Virus record (IMG/VR): IMGVR_UViG_3300007346_000148
Span: 1 to 29,075 of that record
Strand: one strand, 5' to 3'
Origin: a virus
DNA length: 29,075 nucleotides
The notes below the pieces were generated by a model, which was given only the letters and a program-made list of their open reading frames with translations, did no database searches and had not been told where the DNA came from. The stretch's first letter is position 1. The number at the start of each line of letters is the position of its first letter. The translations under genes and the position numbers were made by a program. Positions 17,149 to 27,000 of this stretch are shown here, piece after piece.

Positions 17149-19065
17149 ATGACATTGCAGGTTCCTGACTGGATGAGTCAAGAAGCCGTTGATACCCTCT
17201 CACGCGGTTATCTCTGGCAAGCTGAAACCCCGCGAGGTATGTGGGAAAGAGTGGCCAACCATGCGGCTAAAATTCTTAAATATGAAAAAATTTCTCAGGA
17301 CCTATTTGAAGCCATGTGGAATGGGTATATTGGCCTAGCCACGCCTGTTGCCGCAAACTTCGGAACTTCTAGAGGATTGCCGATCAGTTGCTACTCTGTG
17401 CATCTTTCTGACTCTGTTCAGTCTATTTACTCCCATCTTAAAGAAGTTGCTGCTCTGTCTAAAAATGGCGGTGGAGTCGGTGTGTATTTCGGAGATATTC
17501 GCCCGGCTGGTTCTCCTATTAGCGCTGGGGGCAAAAGCACAGGCGTGGTGCCATGGGCTCAGCAATACGACCTCGCTGCATCAGTGGTTAGCCAGGGAGG
17601 CGTGAGGCGCGGTAGCTTTGCAATCTATCTCCCTATCACCCACCCAGACCTTCCCGAGCTTCTCCGCTCTAAAGACCATTCTCAAGGCGATCCTCGTAAA
17701 TTCGTAGATAGCAACGTCGCAGTGACAGTCGACGATGAGTTTATTACTGCAATGCTTCGTGGCGATGTAGAAAAACAAAAACTTTTCGGCGAAGTATTAA
17801 AGATCCGCATGGTAAGCGGGTCGCCGTACATCGTGTACATCGACAATGCTAATAAGCAAAATCCAGAGTGCTACAATCAAAGAGGGCTCAAAGTTTCTAC
17901 CTCAAATCTCTGCTCTGAAATCTTCCTACACACTGACGAAAATCACTCTTTTGTTTGCGTACTTAGCTCTCTTAATCTTGCTAAGTACGACGAATGGAAA
18001 TCATGGGTCGGCCCCAACACAGGGAAAACCGTTCCAGAACTCACGACGTACCTCCTAGACGCCGTTGTGGAGGACTTTTGCCATAAAGCAGAGCGTTTGC
18101 CATCTATGGGCCGGAGTGCGCGTTTTGCCAGGAAATCAAGGGCGTTAGGCATTGGTACAATGGGACTTCATGCCCTATATCAGCACCGTGGTTATGCCTT
18201 TGAATCCGAAGATGCAAGGAAGCTTAATATTGAATGCCACAAGTTCATCCGCGAAAAAGCAGAAAAAGCATCGAGGCAAATGGCAATTGACTATGGCGAG
18301 CCAGAATGGTGCAAGGGCAATGGAATGAGGCATACTCATTTGATCGCTATCGCGCCGACGCGGTCGAATTCTGTGATTAGCGGAGCAGTGTCTCAGGGGA
18401 TCGAGCCGATCGATTCAAATTACTATGTTGCAAAGCAAGCAAAAGGAACATTTGTTCGCAAAAACCCGTATCTTGTTCAGCTTCTTATCGGCCTAGGTAA
18501 AAATACCGAAGAGGTGTGGGAAAGTATTCTTGAGATGAGAGGTAGCGTTCAGCATCTGAACTTCCTTACCGACTCTGAAAAGAAGATGTTCCGAACAGCG
18601 CGGGAGATTGATCAGTTCGAGCTAATCCGCCAGGCCTCTGACCGCCAGCCATACATTTGCCAAGGACAGTCCCTTAATCTCTTTGTTGATCCTGAGGCAC
18701 CACCTGATTATCTGTTTAAACTTCATCTCAGTGCCTGGAAATATGGACTTAAGAGCCTATATTATTTGCGCAGTTCTTCGTTGTTGGTTAAAAAATCTTC
18801 TATGAAAAAGGCCCAAAAACCACGAGTAAAAATTATTACAAAATCAGATTGCCCATACTGCGTTAAGGCAAAAGAACTTCTCAAGGAAAACGGTATTTCT
18901 TATGAAGAGGTAGATAGGGCGCAAGTAGAAGACTTCCCATATAAAACCGTACCTCAGATATGGATTAATGGAAACTATATTGGAGGGTACACAGATCTTG
19001 CGGAAGAACTTAACCAATCAGACGAAGCTTCAAAGTACAAAGAATGCGCTGCTTGTGAGGGATGA
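17149..19065 (+). CDS. nrdA: Class I ribonucleotide reductase, large subunit with internal glutaredoxin domain
   Basis: The 638-aa alpha subunit reduces ribonucleotides to deoxyribonucleotides. Active-site residues are intact: C81 (PISCYS) and C270 (VCVLSSLNL) form the redox pair, NLCSE at 253-257 gives N253, C255 and E257, and Y538-Y539 (LYYLR) carry the radical path. There is no N-terminal ATP-cone: the protein starts directly in the body, so overall dATP shut-off is probably absent. After YYLR, at about residues 556-620, lies a complete glutaredoxin: CPYC (568-571), TVPQIWING (600-608), GGYTDL. After that comes the normal NrdA tail with its shuttle cysteines, KECAACEG (C633, C636). Glutaredoxin is thus built in between the body and the tail, and should feed electrons directly to it. 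A terminator lies 11 nt downstream. Confidence 0.95.
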   Translation: MTLQVPDWMSQEAVDTLSRGYLWQAETPRGMWERVANHAAKILKYEKISQDLFEAMWNGYIGLATPVAANFGTSRGLPISCYSVHLSDSVQSIYSHLKEVAALSKNGGGVGVYFGDIRPAGSPISAGGKSTGVVPWAQQYDLAASVVSQGGVRRGSFAIYLPITHPDLPELLRSKDHSQGDPRKFVDSNVAVTVDDEFITAMLRGDVEKQKLFGEVLKIRMVSGSPYIVYIDNANKQNPECYNQRGLKVSTSNLCSEIFLHTDENHSFVCVLSSLNLAKYDEWKSWVGPNTGKTVPELTTYLLDAVVEDFCHKAERLPSMGRSARFARKSRALGIGTMGLHALYQHRGYAFESEDARKLNIECHKFIREKAEKASRQMAIDYGEPEWCKGNGMRHTHLIAIAPTRSNSVISGAVSQGIEPIDSNYYVAKQAKGTFVRKNPYLVQLLIGLGKNTEEVWESILEMRGSVQHLNFLTDSEKKMFRTAREIDQFELIRQASDRQPYICQGQSLNLFVDPEAPPDYLFKLHLSAWKYGLKSLYYLRSSSLLVKKSSMKKAQKPRVKIITKSDCPYCVKAKELLKENGISYEEVDRAQVEDFPYKTVPQIWINGNYIGGYTDLAEELNQSDEASKYKECAACEG

Positions 19066-19133: not shown

Positions 19134-19586
19134 ATGTTTGATTACGTTCAGTTTATCAACGAAGGCTACGCTTCCCAGCAAAAATACGCTAAAGCAGCTG
19201 GTCAACCAGGACCTCTTGATCCTGATCTTTCCCGAGAGGATCGTCATGCGAAAGTGATCGAGCACCTGGGCCATCTCATTGAAGAGACTATTGAAGCTCG
19301 GGTGTATGTCCCTAGGCGCAGTTGGAAGAACAATGAACCTTCCTTCCTCGATAATGATAAAAATCGCGAAGAGTTTATTGCAGAGATGTTTGACATCCTT
19401 TTATTTTTTCGAGCAGCGCTGGCTTATGCCGGCGTTAGCGGCGAGGAGTTTGCAAAGATTGCCGAAAAGAAAATGAACTATAACTCTAAACGAAAAGACC
19501 ATAACGTTAATGGCACGGCTTCTGCTTCACAAAATCCCGCGGAAGAACTTCAGGGTAATTGTGATTCTACTAATTTTAATGGCTAA
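19134..19586 (+). CDS. All-alpha NTP pyrophosphohydrolase, dimeric dUTPase / T4 gp56-like or MazG-like
   Basis: The 150-aa protein shows the metal-binding pattern of the all-alpha NTP-PPase superfamily: E50-E51-x-x-E54 (H-L-I-E-E-T-I-E-A), a basic RRSWKN segment (61-66), then E-E-F-I-A-E-M-F-D-I-L with E80, E84 and D87. A late N-Y-N-S-K-R-K-D motif (115-122) resembles the C-terminal signature of dimeric dUTPases, including T4 gp56 (dCTP/dUTP pyrophosphatase). The RRSWKN segment resembles W-K-x-W-K of that branch more than classical MazG, which cyanophages usually carry. It probably hydrolyses dUTP and/or dCTP to the monophosphate, supplying the TS-family enzyme at 24923. The last ~25 residues look like an unstructured tail. 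The next small gene overlaps its stop. Confidence 0.72.
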   Translation: MFDYVQFINEGYASQQKYAKAAGQPGPLDPDLSREDRHAKVIEHLGHLIEETIEARVYVPRRSWKNNEPSFLDNDKNREEFIAEMFDILLFFRAALAYAGVSGEEFAKIAEKKMNYNSKRKDHNVNGTASASQNPAEELQGNCDSTNFNG

Positions 19587-20573: not shown

Positions 20574-20607
20574 GAGAGGGGCCCTTATCGGAACCCCTCT
20601 TTTTTTT
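20574..20607 (+). terminator. Rho-independent terminator closing the leader-peptide unit
   Basis: AGAGGGG (20575-20581) pairs with CCCCTCT (20594-20600) over 12 nt, followed by seven T. The methyltransferase gene on the other strand ends at 20606, inside the T-run, so the hairpin may also serve that transcript although its T-run on that side is poor. Confidence 0.9.
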
Positions 20608-21820
20608 ATATCGACCAAATTTGCTCCATAGGTTTTTTATTGGCTATGTTTGATTGGCGAAGAATTTTTGGAGTTCCGTCGTCTTTAAGTTCGGGATCTA
20701 TCCATTTCCTTTTACCATCGAGCGCAGCGGCGACTTCGCTAATCCAGTCTCCGGCCGTGCATGCCGGAACATTTTGACAACAAACGTTTGCGTTTTTGCT
20801 ATCTACTTGGACTTTTTTATTAAACTCACGAGGAAAACCCATTAATCCTAAAAGTTCTGATGTAGTTAGCCATCTATCTTCGTAAGGATGCATAAGATGC
20901 GGTGCTGTTTTCCACATCATCGATTGAGTTCTATGCCAAGCTAACTTCATACTTCCGTCCATAATATTCTTACCATTGGCTTTTTTCTCACGAGTGTAGT
21001 TTAGCCATCTATTTACTCTTTCATCACGGACGACTACGCAAGCCTCATCCAGCCAACCAGAGTTATAAATTACTTCCCATACACTAACCATCTTCTTTGC
21101 AGCAACAATGCTCAATATGTCCTGAGTTGTCGATCCTCTATACTTCTCTTTAATAAATTGCCACAAAGGGTCGTCGGAAGGTCTGGTGCTCTTTGTATTC
21201 ACAAGAGGGCTCGGAGCAAATTCCCCTTCCTTAATGAATTTATGAAAGGGTTTATAGTCTTTGTTGATAGGCTCGAGCACAGGGACTTTCTTTCCTTTCC
21301 ATAGAAAGAAGAAGCTACGTGTCCTCTCTTGAGGTACTCCGTGCTTGATTGTTGATGTCTTAATCAGACTCATTGTATAATCATGTTTCTGCGCTAGCCC
21401 GTTTATCCGCTCAGCAAACTCTTCTCCCATCTTGGAAAATAGGGTGGGTGCGTTCTCTACCATGATAGCCTTAGGCTTAATGGTACTCATAGCGTACTCC
21501 GATGCATGGATCATATGCATATTGCTGGGAGCCTGACATCCTCTGGGGTTGTTGGCCATATCACCACTTGTGGTATTGGCCATAGATAGCCCGGCGCATG
21601 GCGGCAAAGATGTTACAATATCTACGTACTTCTTTGGATAGGCGTCTTCATCCAAGTTAAAAAATGGAATTTCTGAAAAGAATTTTAGACAATATGAATC
21701 ATTCAGACCGAAAGTATCAGACCATGATGCAATCCACTCTGGATCACGACCGAGAGCGTTGGTTGTGCCTACAACCGAACCACCAACAAGAGGGATTATA
21801 TGACCGTGGGAATATGACAT
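20606..21820 (-). CDS. DNA (cytosine-5-)-methyltransferase
   Basis: The 404-aa protein has the C5-methyltransferase motifs: a Gly-rich N-terminal loop (PLVGGSVVG, about 10-18) in the place of motif I, catalytic Cys in S-L-P-P-C-A-G-L-S (C75, motif IV), V-E-N-A (121-124, motif VI; usually ENV), and G-V-P-Q-E-R-T-R (161-168, motif VIII). Near the C-terminus are R-W-L-T-T-S-E-L-L-G-L-M-G-F-P and C-Q-N-V-P (motifs IX-X). The region between VIII and IX (about 170-315) would hold the target-recognition part; its sequence gives no target. Motif I and ENA are somewhat divergent, so activity should be confirmed. It is transcribed away from the HNH-domain gene at 21872 across a 51-nt spacer with an inverted repeat. 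It may protect phage DNA or form a restriction-modification-like pair. Confidence 0.85.
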   Translation of the reverse strand: MSYSHGHIIPLVGGSVVGTTNALGRDPEWIASWSDTFGLNDSYCLKFFSEIPFFNLDEDAYPKKYVDIVTSLPPCAGLSMANTTSGDMANNPRGCQAPSNMHMIHASEYAMSTIKPKAIMVENAPTLFSKMGEEFAERINGLAQKHDYTMSLIKTSTIKHGVPQERTRSFFFLWKGKKVPVLEPINKDYKPFHKFIKEGEFAPSPLVNTKSTRPSDDPLWQFIKEKYRGSTTQDILSIVAAKKMVSVWEVIYNSGWLDEACVVVRDERVNRWLNYTREKKANGKNIMDGSMKLAWHRTQSMMWKTAPHLMHPYEDRWLTTSELLGLMGFPREFNKKVQVDSKNANVCCQNVPACTAGDWISEVAAALDGKRKWIDPELKDDGTPKILRQSNIANKKPMEQIWSI

Positions 21821-21871: not shown

Positions 21872-24160
21872 ATGAAGAGATATAGATATGTGCTACGAAG
21901 CATGACGGATAGGATTAGCTATAACGCCCCAGATGACTGGGGTATTTCAGAAAAAGAATCGTGGGTTAGTTTTGAAGAGCTAAAGGATAATGGTGCCCCG
22001 GTCCTTGAGGGTAGAGACGTTGTAGGTTTTATTGAGTTTGCACAAATTAAACTCGCTCCTAATAAGCCTCCTGGGGCAACTTCTTGGCGATCTATAGATA
22101 ATAAGCCAGTGCAGCTGGATCCATCGACTAAAAGATGGAAGTATGTTCGAGCAAAGCCTCAAGCTGAACAGAAAAACACTCCCGCTCAAAGAATGGAGCA
22201 GGCTAGAAAGTCTGGTCAATGGAAAGGCCCAGTAGACAAAGAGACTCCTAAGAATAAGCCCGAGCCTAAAGTTAAGCCAGAAATTAAAAAGCCTGAGCCT
22301 AAAGAAAAGAAAATCGCTCCGGCTCCTGCGCCAGAAACAAAACAAGAAAAAGAACCAACAGCAACTAATATTGATAAATATGCTCTTGACGTTGTTTCAG
22401 AAGAAGATGCAAACCGAGTAGCCGACTTAGCTGCTAAAGGATCTCAAGACCCCATGTTTAGATCGGGTCAAATTACAATTAAAGAGATAGATGGGCATTA
22501 CTCTGGAGCTTCTCCAGTTCAAGAATTATTTAATAAGTTCCCACAAAACGTACGAGAAATATCTGACGCGATAAAAGAAGGAAACTTGGATGCAAAAATA
22601 AAAATGAAGGGCGGAAAGGAAGTAATGACTGTAAGAGAAATTGCTTCTCAGGCAGGAGTTAAAAATGAAGAATTGCAATCTCTTTCAAACTTTATTGAAT
22701 TACTCGACTCTCAGACAGAATCAAATGGGGCATGGAGAACTTCTGCAACTTATAGTTTGTCTCCAGGATTAGATTACGCGTCTGCAAAAATGATCGAGCA
22801 AAGATCTGATCTTGCTAATTCAGAAACTTCTGTTCAAGACATCAGAACCAAGGCTTATTCTTTAGGAGCTTTAAATGACGATAGTAAAGGATGGTCTTCT
22901 CTATCACCAGCGGCCATTGATTTAGCCTTTGAGTTAAGGACTGCAAAACAACGAGAAGCATTGAAAAAGAGCGGCACTCCTAATTATTTTTACGACCCTA
23001 CGGCATCAAATCAGCAGGGTAAAGCAAATAGTATAAGAGGCAGAATGGCTTTATTTATGTACGCAAGGCAGGGTGGTAGAGACTGCTACGCTACAGGAGG
23101 AAACATAAAACCCGTTGGTGACTTTCAAGTAGAGCATATTGAGGATATGTCCTCTGGAGGCAGAGATCACAAAGATAATCTTGCTTTATCAGTAAAATAT
23201 GTCAACGAAGCAAGAGGGTCTATGTCTTTACCCAATCTTCAAAATTTAGGAGAAAGAAAGGCAAAAGAAGTTGATAAAAACTTAGCAAACCCAGACGGAC
23301 AATTTTTACAGGCAAGATTGGGCGCCTTACAAAAAAGAGGAATTCACGACGCTTTAAGCGCAACTGCGTCACCTTTAAAGGGTAAAGTATCTGATTTAAT
23401 TAGCCCGGCTTTCTTCGAGCTAATTTTATCTAATCAAGAAAAACTTCCTGAAGATTTAAAAACTTCTCAAGGAGCTTTTGATTCGTTTGTGGAAGAAATA
23501 AATAGCAACTTTGAAGGAAGTGTAAAAATTACAAGTTTGTCCTCTACTAAGCTAAATAATCTAGTTTCTTCTCTAGAAAACTTGGGAGCAGACCCAGATA
23601 AAATAAAAGATTATCTTGGTAGAATCGCTTTCAACAACTATCACGACGGAAGCAGAGGAACTAGAGGAGGAACAAATGAAAGTCCGGCCGGGCTAACCTC
23701 TCTTGAAAATAGGGCACTTGGAAAACCGGATACTATCTCTGAAGATAGGTACGAGCAGCATACACAAATGATTGCTGCTTCCCACGCCGCAATTAGAGAC
23801 GCAAGAGAGGCATTAATAAAAGGAGAGTCGAAAAATAATGTAGAATTTCACGAAGTTCTTTCTAGAAGCTTACATTTTATTTCTGGAAAAGCAGAAGACT
23901 CTCCTGAATGGATTAAAGCTCGTCCTTCTAATCCAAGAGACATTTTATTTACAGTAGATACTTATTTAAAAAATTTTCCTCCTGAATCAAAAGTAGGAAA
24001 TAACCTTGATGGGTTATATCTCTCTGCCGCTATGAGCCAATACGGATTTAGCGCAGAAGAAATTGCTAATCCTAATTTGCTAACACAAAAAGCTAAAAGA
24101 ACTCAAGCCGAAAAGTTAAGAGCTAACTTAAAGTTAATTAGAGGCGGAAACAATGAATGA
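21872..24160 (+). CDS. Large protein with central HNH-like nuclease motif
   Basis: The 762-aa protein has three visible parts. Residues 1-95 include PPGATSWRSI and are of unknown fold. Residues ~95-170 are a Lys/Pro/Glu-rich linker (repeated K-P-E-P-K). Residues ~170-762 are mostly helical and contain at about 395-450 an HNH-like core: RGRMALFMYARQ, a single Cys, F-Q-V-E-H-I-E-D-M (H422), D-N-L-A-L, and a following Asn (V-N-E-A-R). The lower zinc site of many HNH proteins is not obvious. The start could also be the ATG at 21902 because the first ATG abuts a hairpin and lacks a Shine-Dalgarno. It lies opposite a C5-methyltransferase and overlaps the next gene by 8 nt. It could be a restriction or DNA-processing nuclease, or a homing enzyme. 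The overall family is not recognised. Confidence 0.65.
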   Translation: MKRYRYVLRSMTDRISYNAPDDWGISEKESWVSFEELKDNGAPVLEGRDVVGFIEFAQIKLAPNKPPGATSWRSIDNKPVQLDPSTKRWKYVRAKPQAEQKNTPAQRMEQARKSGQWKGPVDKETPKNKPEPKVKPEIKKPEPKEKKIAPAPAPETKQEKEPTATNIDKYALDVVSEEDANRVADLAAKGSQDPMFRSGQITIKEIDGHYSGASPVQELFNKFPQNVREISDAIKEGNLDAKIKMKGGKEVMTVREIASQAGVKNEELQSLSNFIELLDSQTESNGAWRTSATYSLSPGLDYASAKMIEQRSDLANSETSVQDIRTKAYSLGALNDDSKGWSSLSPAAIDLAFELRTAKQREALKKSGTPNYFYDPTASNQQGKANSIRGRMALFMYARQGGRDCYATGGNIKPVGDFQVEHIEDMSSGGRDHKDNLALSVKYVNEARGSMSLPNLQNLGERKAKEVDKNLANPDGQFLQARLGALQKRGIHDALSATASPLKGKVSDLISPAFFELILSNQEKLPEDLKTSQGAFDSFVEEINSNFEGSVKITSLSSTKLNNLVSSLENLGADPDKIKDYLGRIAFNNYHDGSRGTRGGTNESPAGLTSLENRALGKPDTISEDRYEQHTQMIAASHAAIRDAREALIKGESKNNVEFHEVLSRSLHFISGKAEDSPEWIKARPSNPRDILFTVDTYLKNFPPESKVGNNLDGLYLSAAMSQYGFSAEEIANPNLLTQKAKRTQAEKLRANLKLIRGGNNE

Positions 24161-24922: not shown

Positions 24923-25759
24923 ATGGCCCTTAGTTTTGATCTTCAGTACATTAAAATTGCTAAAGAAATCCTTGATGATGGGGTCGAGGTAGTAGGTCGT
25001 AATAATCTTCGTTACAAGCAAGTATTTGGTCAGACAATCTGCATCGATCTTCGTGATGGCTTTCCTGCGCTCACTCTTCGCAAAATGCCCGTCCGCAACC
25101 TCTTTAGAGAGTTTATGTGGGATGTAAACGGAAACTATGAAGTTAGCAATCTCGGCCCTGCAAAGCACTTCTGGGACTTCTTGGCCGATGCCGAAGGCCG
25201 CCTTGCAGGATCATACGGACGGAGTTGGAGAGCTTGGCCACAAGTTTGTCCTGAGCAGGATATGCAATGGGAAAAATTTCGTGAAACGCCATTTGACCAG
25301 CTCAAGTGGATTTGGGAACAACTCCGTGCTAATCCAACAAATCGCCAACTTGTTCTTCAAACTCTCAATCCTGCTTACGATTCTCTTCACTGCCCTCCTT
25401 GTCACCCTAATATCACTTTTTCTAGTGACGGGACTTATCTTGATATCCTAGTTAATGCTCGGAGTAATGACATGGCTACCGGTGTCCCTTTGGATATGTT
25501 CAGATACGGCCTTCTTTGCACAAAGATGGCACAAGATTCAAGTCTTACGCCTCGGTATGTAATGTTTGCTTCTGCTAATAATCATATCTATTCTCAGAAC
25601 GAACTAGCTATTCGCTCAATTATCAAAAACATCCCTCTTGGTAAATGTGAAGTTTTAATTAATTCAGACAAAACTCTTTTCGATCTGGATCCTGAAACAG
25701 ACTTCGAACTTATTGATTATAGTTCTTACGGAAACGTACGAATGGAGGTTGCTAATTGA
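24923..25759 (+). CDS. Thymidylate-synthase-family enzyme with dCMP-type active site (probable dCMP hydroxymethylase)
   Basis: The 278-aa protein has the TS fold signatures: E63 and W84 in the folate/nucleotide region, catalytic C160 in P-P-C-H (158-161), the R-S-x-D segment as R180-S-N-D183, and H221-I-Y223 for nucleotide binding. The decisive residue is D191 (G-V-P-L-D-M): TS has Asn here (N177 in E. coli, P-F-N), which selects dUMP, while T4 dCMP hydroxymethylase has Asp (D179). R-S-N-D is also the form seen in the T4 enzyme. So the substrate is probably dCMP and the product 5-hydroxymethyl-dCMP, or 5-methyl-dCMP if it acts as a methylase; sequence alone does not separate them. The family uses methylene-tetrahydrofolate. 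It is coupled to the following nuclease gene. Confidence 0.8.
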   Translation: MALSFDLQYIKIAKEILDDGVEVVGRNNLRYKQVFGQTICIDLRDGFPALTLRKMPVRNLFREFMWDVNGNYEVSNLGPAKHFWDFLADAEGRLAGSYGRSWRAWPQVCPEQDMQWEKFRETPFDQLKWIWEQLRANPTNRQLVLQTLNPAYDSLHCPPCHPNITFSSDGTYLDILVNARSNDMATGVPLDMFRYGLLCTKMAQDSSLTPRYVMFASANNHIYSQNELAIRSIIKNIPLGKCEVLINSDKTLFDLDPETDFELIDYSSYGNVRMEVAN

Positions 25760-27000
25760 TAGAGTATGATTATAAAACAACTCTGCTAGAAGATGTTTTT
25801 GAGGTAGAGAAGGACCCTCTTCTCCCGATTTATGTCATAGACTTTAAAGTCGCTGCCCATTTTATCAATGGGTTTTATGACATAATGCATGAAATTGCTA
25901 AGGGAAACGAAAAACTTCTCAGGGATTTAATTAAAGCTATGTGGGCCTATAGATTAAATCGTGGGCCCGATATGCTCGCACCCTTTGATTTTATAGGCAT
26001 CATTGCCGATGACAAAAAAGGAAACGTTGAGGATAACGCCTCCGTAAGCGGAAAAGGATACTGGAGGCATATTGAAGCATATAAACTTCAAATGCAAGAG
26101 TATAAAGCTGGCAGAGCGCCAAAGGCAGATAACTTCATCCTAGTACAAGATATCGGATATGAATATATCCAAAGTCCTAACTCGTCGTTTCATTATTTCT
26201 GCAAAGAATTTTTCGAGGCAGACGACATTGCGGGAAAAATTGCCCGAATGAAAAGATCGGCATCTCCACGGTCTAATTTGGCAAAACGTCAAGTTCTCCT
26301 TGGCACTCTTGACGGAGATTGGCAGGGTCTTGTGTCCAATAAGCATAAGATCTTATGGTGTAATACGGGCCCATGGTTACCGCGTATGCGCGGAGAAGCC
26401 GAGGTTATTGACTACTATCTCCGCAAAGAAGGTTTAAAAATAAATGAAGCACGAGAGTGCTACACAGTAAAAGTAGAGGTGGGAGACATCGGCGATGGTC
26501 TCCTGCCCGGTTCTCCGCTCCGATTTTTTGACCTATATAACGAAGATGAAACGTGGAATTTCTCAGAGGAAGATACCTCGTGTCTATCAAAAATACTTGA
26601 TTCAAATAACAGATCAAACCGGCAAGATCATTTTAATTCCGCGAAAAAATTTCTTCTCGCACATGGGATGTTCCTCCCAGAACTTGCAAAAACTGAAGAC
26701 CACGACAAACAGCTTTTCTTTAGCAAGTCGAATAAGATACGCAAAGAGAAAGCTAATCCAGAACTCAAAGGGCGTAATAAAAAAGTGTGTATGGAGGCCC
26801 CTCAAGAGAATTTTGAAAAATGTAAAGACCTTGTGGTTAAAGACGAAGACATCAAAATAAAAATTAAATACGAAGAACAGAACTTAAAAGATTGCGGGGA
26901 AGATAAGCTTTGTAAAAAAGCTATTCGTACAGCGATCAAAGCCTATAAGTCTATTCGCGAAGATATAAAAGAAAAGCTTAGCTCTCTGTCAAATAAATAA
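25756..27000 (+). CDS. 5'-3' exonuclease, FEN/RNase H-like (PIN-domain) with long C-terminal extension
   Basis: The start is TTG at 25756, overlapping the upstream TGA. GGAGG (25745-25749) lies 6 nt before it and no usable ATG is close. The 414-aa protein shows FEN motifs: Y-V-I-D-F (D29), a D-D-K-K-G turn (D85-D86), Y-W-R then Y-K-x-x-x-x-E-Y-K (helical arch), F-E-A-D-D-I-A-G (154-160), L-D-G-D-W-Q-G-L (185-192) and a divergent helix-hairpin region V-G-D-I-G-D-G-L-L-P-G (242-252). T4 RNase H and related enzymes remove RNA primers and flaps during replication. Residues ~320-414 form a Lys/Glu-rich, possibly coiled tail of unknown use. It is co-expressed with the TS-family enzyme and precedes the helicase. 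Confidence 0.78.
   Translation: MIEYDYKTTLLEDVFEVEKDPLLPIYVIDFKVAAHFINGFYDIMHEIAKGNEKLLRDLIKAMWAYRLNRGPDMLAPFDFIGIIADDKKGNVEDNASVSGKGYWRHIEAYKLQMQEYKAGRAPKADNFILVQDIGYEYIQSPNSSFHYFCKEFFEADDIAGKIARMKRSASPRSNLAKRQVLLGTLDGDWQGLVSNKHKILWCNTGPWLPRMRGEAEVIDYYLRKEGLKINEARECYTVKVEVGDIGDGLLPGSPLRFFDLYNEDETWNFSEEDTSCLSKILDSNNRSNRQDHFNSAKKFLLAHGMFLPELAKTEDHDKQLFFSKSNKIRKEKANPELKGRNKKVCMEAPQENFEKCKDLVVKDEDIKIKIKYEEQNLKDCGEDKLCKKAIRTAIKAYKSIREDIKEKLSSLSNK

Follow-up and report, generated by a model that had tools for sequence, protein, structure and literature searches.

The window, i.e., the whole 29-kb stretch of viral DNA (29,075 nucleotides) analyzed here, contains a thymidylate synthase (TS) family gene whose protein very probably uses dCMP as its substrate and modifies it, judging from its residues and from the gene content of its relatives. 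At the pyrimidine-selecting position, where dUMP-specific TS has Asn177 (E. coli TS numbering, EcTS), this protein has Asp191. Given this residue and the ThyX, dCMP deaminase and T4-type alpha-glucosyltransferase (AGT) genes of cyanophage S-TIM5, the dCMP specificity and the cytosine-modified phage genome proposed in the initial annotation are well supported. As for the product, for which the initial annotation allowed both the 5-hydroxymethyl and the 5-methyl form, we modestly favor 5-hydroxymethyl-dCMP, later glucosylated in DNA. The features discussed are presented in Table 1.

Table 1. Features of the window relevant to the putative dCMP-modifying enzyme
Feature	Position	Strand	Remarks
Ribonucleotide reductase large subunit	17149..19065	+	Fused C-terminal glutaredoxin domain
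MazG-like nucleotide pyrophosphohydrolase	19134..19586	+	Possible supplier of dCMP from dCTP
C5-cytosine DNA methyltransferase	20606..21820	-	Conserved in clade
762-aa ORF	21872..24160	+	Weak HNH-endonuclease-like segment
TS-family ORF, predicted dCMP-specific	24923..25759	+	ATG to TGA, 278 aa
Cys157 codon, three residues before catalytic Cys	25391..25393	+	Leu in TS, Asp in T4 dCMP hydroxymethylase, Asn in Xp12-like enzymes
Catalytic Cys160 codon (EcTS C146)	25400..25402	+	Alignment
Asp191 codon GAT (EcTS N177, T4 gp42 D179), pyrimidine-selecting position	25493..25495	+	Alignments
5'-3' exonuclease/flap endonuclease-like gene	25756..27000	+	4-base overlap with TS-like gene, same replication module

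The gene and its neighborhood

The TS-like gene is an open and complete reading frame, as initially annotated, and it matches Pfam Thymidylat_synt (PF00303 superfamily) at 5e-49 over its whole length and the PHROG thymidylate synthase at 6e-58. Besides this profile match, the residues Glu58, Cys146, Arg166, Asp169, His207 and Tyr209 (EcTS numbering) place the protein in the TS family, and its catalytic set is kept (E63, W84, Y98, R141, C160, R180, S181, D183, H221 and Y223). Identity is 26-33% to true TS, 20% to T4 gp42, and 86-87% to the products of S-TIM5, S-TIM54, S-TIM61 and S-TIM66, whose genes lie in the same order and present no difference of substance from the window ORF. These four homologues are annotated as thymidylate synthase or ThyA, a label that had been suspected of hiding a dCMP-type enzyme; in this group of cyanophages it would, in all likelihood, be a misannotation of a dCMP-modifying member of the TS family.

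The presumed cyanobacterial phage source also holds: the right half of the window is collinear with S-TIM5 and the three relatives named above, and the window represents part of the genome of an S-TIM5-like cyanophage. Around the TS-like gene lies a replication module with ribonucleotide reductase, MazG-like, C5-cytosine DNA methyltransferase, flap-endonuclease-like and primase genes, the order of which is mostly kept in related contigs. The methyltransferase looks intact (PPC motif, ENA, QERTR), and every related contig long enough to reach this region has it. The S-TIM5 homologue of the 762-aa ORF is annotated as a virion structural protein, and several relatives lack this gene or conserve it poorly.

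Asp191 and the choice of substrate

D191 had been placed by eye at the dUMP-selecting Asn of TS, opposite Asp179 of T4 gp42, and the alignments bear this out. It aligns with N177 of E. coli TS in the multiple alignment and with the TS Asn of PDB chains aligned by phmmer, and it faces T4 gp42 D179 within an ungapped stretch of the BLASTP alignment; in the alignments with TS and T4 gp42, no other residue stands at the N177 position. The protein thus lacks the Asn177 of dUMP-specific TS and has the Asp found at 177/179 in T4-type dCMP hydroxymethylase.

This residue does not vary among the window, S-TIM5 and 20 related viral contigs of marine origin, 19 of which encode proteins at 79-86% identity and one of which (L129) at 75%. 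Within the clade, dN/dS is 0.06-0.08 with synonymous sites near saturation, i.e., purifying selection is strong, and both GAT and GAC are in use at the D191 codon. Given such invariance despite near-saturated synonymous sites, D191 is not a chance occurrence.

In T4 gp42, Asp179 both holds cytosine N3 and protonates it, and the D179N mutant forms no product (PMC6400193). Introducing Asn177Asp into TS switches the substrate from dUMP to dCMP (PMC8670742). The same study found that environmental phage DNA, when selected for modified cytosine, mostly encodes Asp at position 177, against mostly Asn in unmodified contigs, and that genes for dCMP deaminase and a MazG-like pyrophosphohydrolase accompany those for TS domains (PMC8670742). 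The segment RSND (residues 180-183), in contrast, was ruled out as the T4-type feature that the initial annotation saw in it, since B. subtilis TS A, an enzyme of the Asn type, has it too (ARSNDMALGNPFN) and so, in the multiple alignment, does the SPO1 dUMP hydroxymethylase gp29.

Partner genes in S-TIM5 and its relatives

Both the ThyX gene and the AGT-like gene were identified in S-TIM5 and relatives, outside the window record. S-TIM5 encodes ThyX (Thy1 profile, 7.6e-47), as do seven of eleven related contigs, most of which are fragments; the window record yielded no ThyX, as expected of a 29-kb fragment. No second ThyA-type gene was found in the twelve records (S-TIM5 and eleven related contigs). 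Given S-TIM5 has ThyX as its own source of dTMP, a second dTMP synthase would not be needed. The S-TIM5 gene set combines dCMP deaminase, a MazG-like protein and the TS-like enzyme, which is the co-occurrence described in PMC8670742. It is on account of the Asp177 literature, this gene set, ThyX and the lack of a second ThyA-type gene that we assign dCMP as substrate with high confidence.

S-TIM5 gp011, already named DNA alpha-GT in its GenBank record, is a member of the T4 DNA alpha-glucosyltransferase family, scoring 37.3 bits with PF11440, for which the curated cut-off is 25. It aligns with T4 a-gt at 23.5% identity over 86% of the length (8e-12), and keeps the T4 AGT features, namely the N-terminal RGxEGCGV, H114, D115, R204, E306 and E311. 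The substrate of T4 AGT is 5hmC in DNA. Matches to T4 a-gt occur in 619 phage records, and the five named cyanophages among the matches listed are all S-TIM isolates. Homologues of gp011 are also present in two large related contigs, with 65% and 55% identity. The AGT-like match in L045 (contig of L019) has one in-frame TAG inside an open frame. S-TIM5 additionally encodes gp211 (L002 16050-16724), a second, weakly glycosyltransferase-like protein, which could add a different sugar.

A point against the hydroxymethylation route is that the matches listed for the S-TIM5 proteins scanned (PHROGs) include no T4-type dNMP kinase. Oxidation of 5mC by TET/JBP was considered as an alternative source of 5hmC and set aside, as S-TIM5 and eleven relatives yielded no match in a search run without a positive control.

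Nature of the product

In the pathway that we modestly favor, Cys160 would attack C6 of dCMP, Asp191, in place of the uracil-reading Asn, would bind and protonate cytosine N3, and methylenetetrahydrofolate would provide the one-carbon unit. The exocyclic methylene would most likely be hydrated to give 5-hydroxymethyl-dCMP, which would be phosphorylated and then polymerized into DNA, where 5hmC would be alpha-glucosylated by the T4 AGT-like enzyme encoded elsewhere in the S-TIM5 genome. Thymidylate would come from a separate route, through phage and host ThyX. We infer that the window's own phage has these same partners.

The main rival is a dCMP methylase, in which the methylene is reduced by the tetrahydrofolate (THF) hydride to yield 5-methyl-dCMP, as in the Xp12-type 5mC phages. 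We consider this unlikely on balance, and the evidence on the product is mixed: the residues and the gene context point different ways. Hydroxymethylases have a published signature, in which Asp/Glu precedes the catalytic Cys by three residues and Ser/Thr precedes a conserved Tyr (Tyr96) by two (PMC6400193). The window protein has Cys157 and Gly96 at these positions, both invariant in the clade. It also has a TS-like C-terminal tail (...MEVAN) and a TS-like His161 (EcTS H147). The tail seals the active site of TS, and T4 gp42 has none. Furthermore, N177D alone is enough for TS to yield 5-methyl-dCMP (PMC8670742). Among known systems, the presumed dCMP methyltransferase of Xanthomonas phage YB23 likewise combines Asp177 with the lack of an Asp at that -3 position, and YB23, as S-TIM5, carries dCMP deaminase and MazG-like genes. 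YB23 serves here as a stand-in for Xp12, because both published qPCR primers for Xp12 match it exactly and the two genomes are nearly equal in length. The likeness is nevertheless partial, since the YB23 clade has Asn/Pro at 143/147 and no TS-like tail, where the window clade has Cys/His and the tail. Cys157 in fact sets the protein apart both from TS, which has Leu there, and from Xp12-like enzymes, which have Asn, and the protein departs from TS at all three solvent-excluding positions: Leu87 for Trp83, Cys157 for Leu143, and Asn278 where a hydrophobic residue usually ends the chain.

The gene context favors hydroxymethylation. A methylase would leave the AGT-like glucosyltransferase without a substrate, and it would produce dihydrofolate (DHF): TS-type methylation releases DHF, whereas hydroxymethylation returns THF and requires no dihydrofolate reductase (DHFR) (PMC5175136). 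DHFR is absent from S-TIM5 and its eleven relatives and from all 61 host-family genomes, none of which has ThyA either, while ThyX is present in 38 of 41 host-family genomes. T4 and the Xp12-like phage YB23, in contrast, have DHFR. Its absence is not general to cyanobacteria, as the S. elongatus control genome has it. With no DHFR in phage or host family, an enzyme producing DHF would be a burden, which a hydroxymethylase, by returning THF, would avoid; folate economy would therefore favor 5-hydroxymethyl-dCMP as product.

The conserved C5-cytosine DNA methyltransferase is an odd companion for a cytosine modification made at the pool level. Complete replacement of cytosine would leave this enzyme with hardly any role, so replacement may be partial.

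Comparison with related enzymes

In comparison with ThyA (EC 2.1.1.45), the window protein shares the fold, catalytic residues, length, C-terminal tail and H147, and differs by Asn177 to Asp191, Leu143 to Cys157, Trp83 to Leu87, Arg127 to Gln142, and the C-terminal Asn. With T4 gp42 (EC 2.1.2.8) it shares the Asp at the pyrimidine-selecting position and the catalytic Cys, Glu, Arg, Ser, His and Tyr, and S-TIM5 resembles T4 in having an AGT-like glucosyltransferase and dCMP deaminase; T4 gp42, however, has the Asp145 and Ser94 signature and lacks the tail. SPO1 gp29 has Gln at the EcTS Arg127 position, as the window protein does, in addition to RSND, and differs in its Asn177, Asp143 and Asn147.

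The residues at positions 177/143/147 were compared in 147 distinct sequences, gathered for this analysis and not a random sample. These comprise 93 N/L/H (TS), 31 N/D/N (SPO1 dUMP-hydroxymethylase type), 11 D/N/P (Xp12-like), 5 D/C/H (the window clade, with five members as representatives), 4 D/D/T (T4-type dCMP hydroxymethylase), 2 D/L/H and 1 N/L/V. The D/C/H combination is confined to the window clade among the sampled relatives. About 30 contigs (L235-L272) have the SPO1 gp29-like Asn177/Asp143/Asn147 and form a pool of possible hydroxymethyluracil phages.

In a 49-row tree, N/D/N, D/N/P, D/D/T and D/C/H each form one starred group. Free trees put the D/C/H clade on the TS side, yet the AU test does not reject a grouping with T4 gp42 (p 0.225 and 0.553), such that shared ancestry with T4 gp42 is, from these sequences, neither supported nor rejected. 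A separate origin from TS is likewise unsupported, the AU tests not rejecting the gp42 grouping and the branches being very long.

An AlphaFold model built from 59 diverse rows, mostly TS, reached a pLDDT of 91.8, against 46.7 when close relatives only were used. Its nearest structure is E. coli TS (Z 35.9, with 260 residues superposed at 1.5 A), a nearness partly built in because the input alignment is mostly TS. The predicted structure supports a TS fold, not a function.

That the protein is an ordinary TS which tolerates Asp at 177 and still converts dUMP to dTMP is improbable. This would agree with the ThyA annotation, the identity to true TS and the model, yet Asn is the rule among sampled TS with Leu143, the W83 and L143 positions are changed in the same protein, and ThyX occurs in S-TIM5 and the host, with no DHFR. 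Two otherwise canonical phage TS with Leu143/His147 do have Asp177 (L039 492-1331, td of Aeromonas phage AhFM11, and L135 301-1125); these are themselves candidate dCMP methylases, and the close relative L220 keeps Asn at 177. A dCMP-modifying enzyme whose end product is neither plain 5mC nor 5hmC, e.g., a shuttle for another hypermodified cytosine, would fit a D177/C143/H147 set unlike the characterized classes and the presence of gp211, but is the least probable reading, as glycosyltransferases are the only hypermodification enzymes among the matches listed for the S-TIM5 proteins scanned.

Returning to 5-hydroxymethyl-dCMP, the enzyme most likely works like T4 gp42, yet its sequence would not justify classing it with the gp42-type dCMP hydroxymethylases, since the Asp/Ser signature and the lack of a tail, both defining features of that type, are missing. 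The chances are about even that it represents a distinct Asp177/Cys143/His147 class of dCMP hydroxymethylase, with no water-activating Asp and a full TS tail, that supplies widespread marine cyanophages with genomes containing glucosyl-hydroxymethylcytosine; on this reading, the lack of DHFR on both the phage and the host side would select for THF-sparing chemistry.

Implications

No earlier report of modified cytosine in the S-TIM5-like group was found in the open papers searched, which do not include the 2012 S-TIM5 genome paper, so an earlier hint is possible; nor did these papers yield data on the virion DNA bases of S-TIM5-like phages. Given a culturable phage (S-TIM5) exists, the question is directly answerable. 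It would also test the completeness of the published Asp145 rule separating hydroxymethylases from methylases. If the proposed reading is true, the "thymidylate synthase" label hides modified, probably glucosylated cytosine in marine cyanophages that are cultured and widespread, which would bear on their sensitivity to restriction and CRISPR and on the behavior of S-TIM5-like genomes in sequencing.
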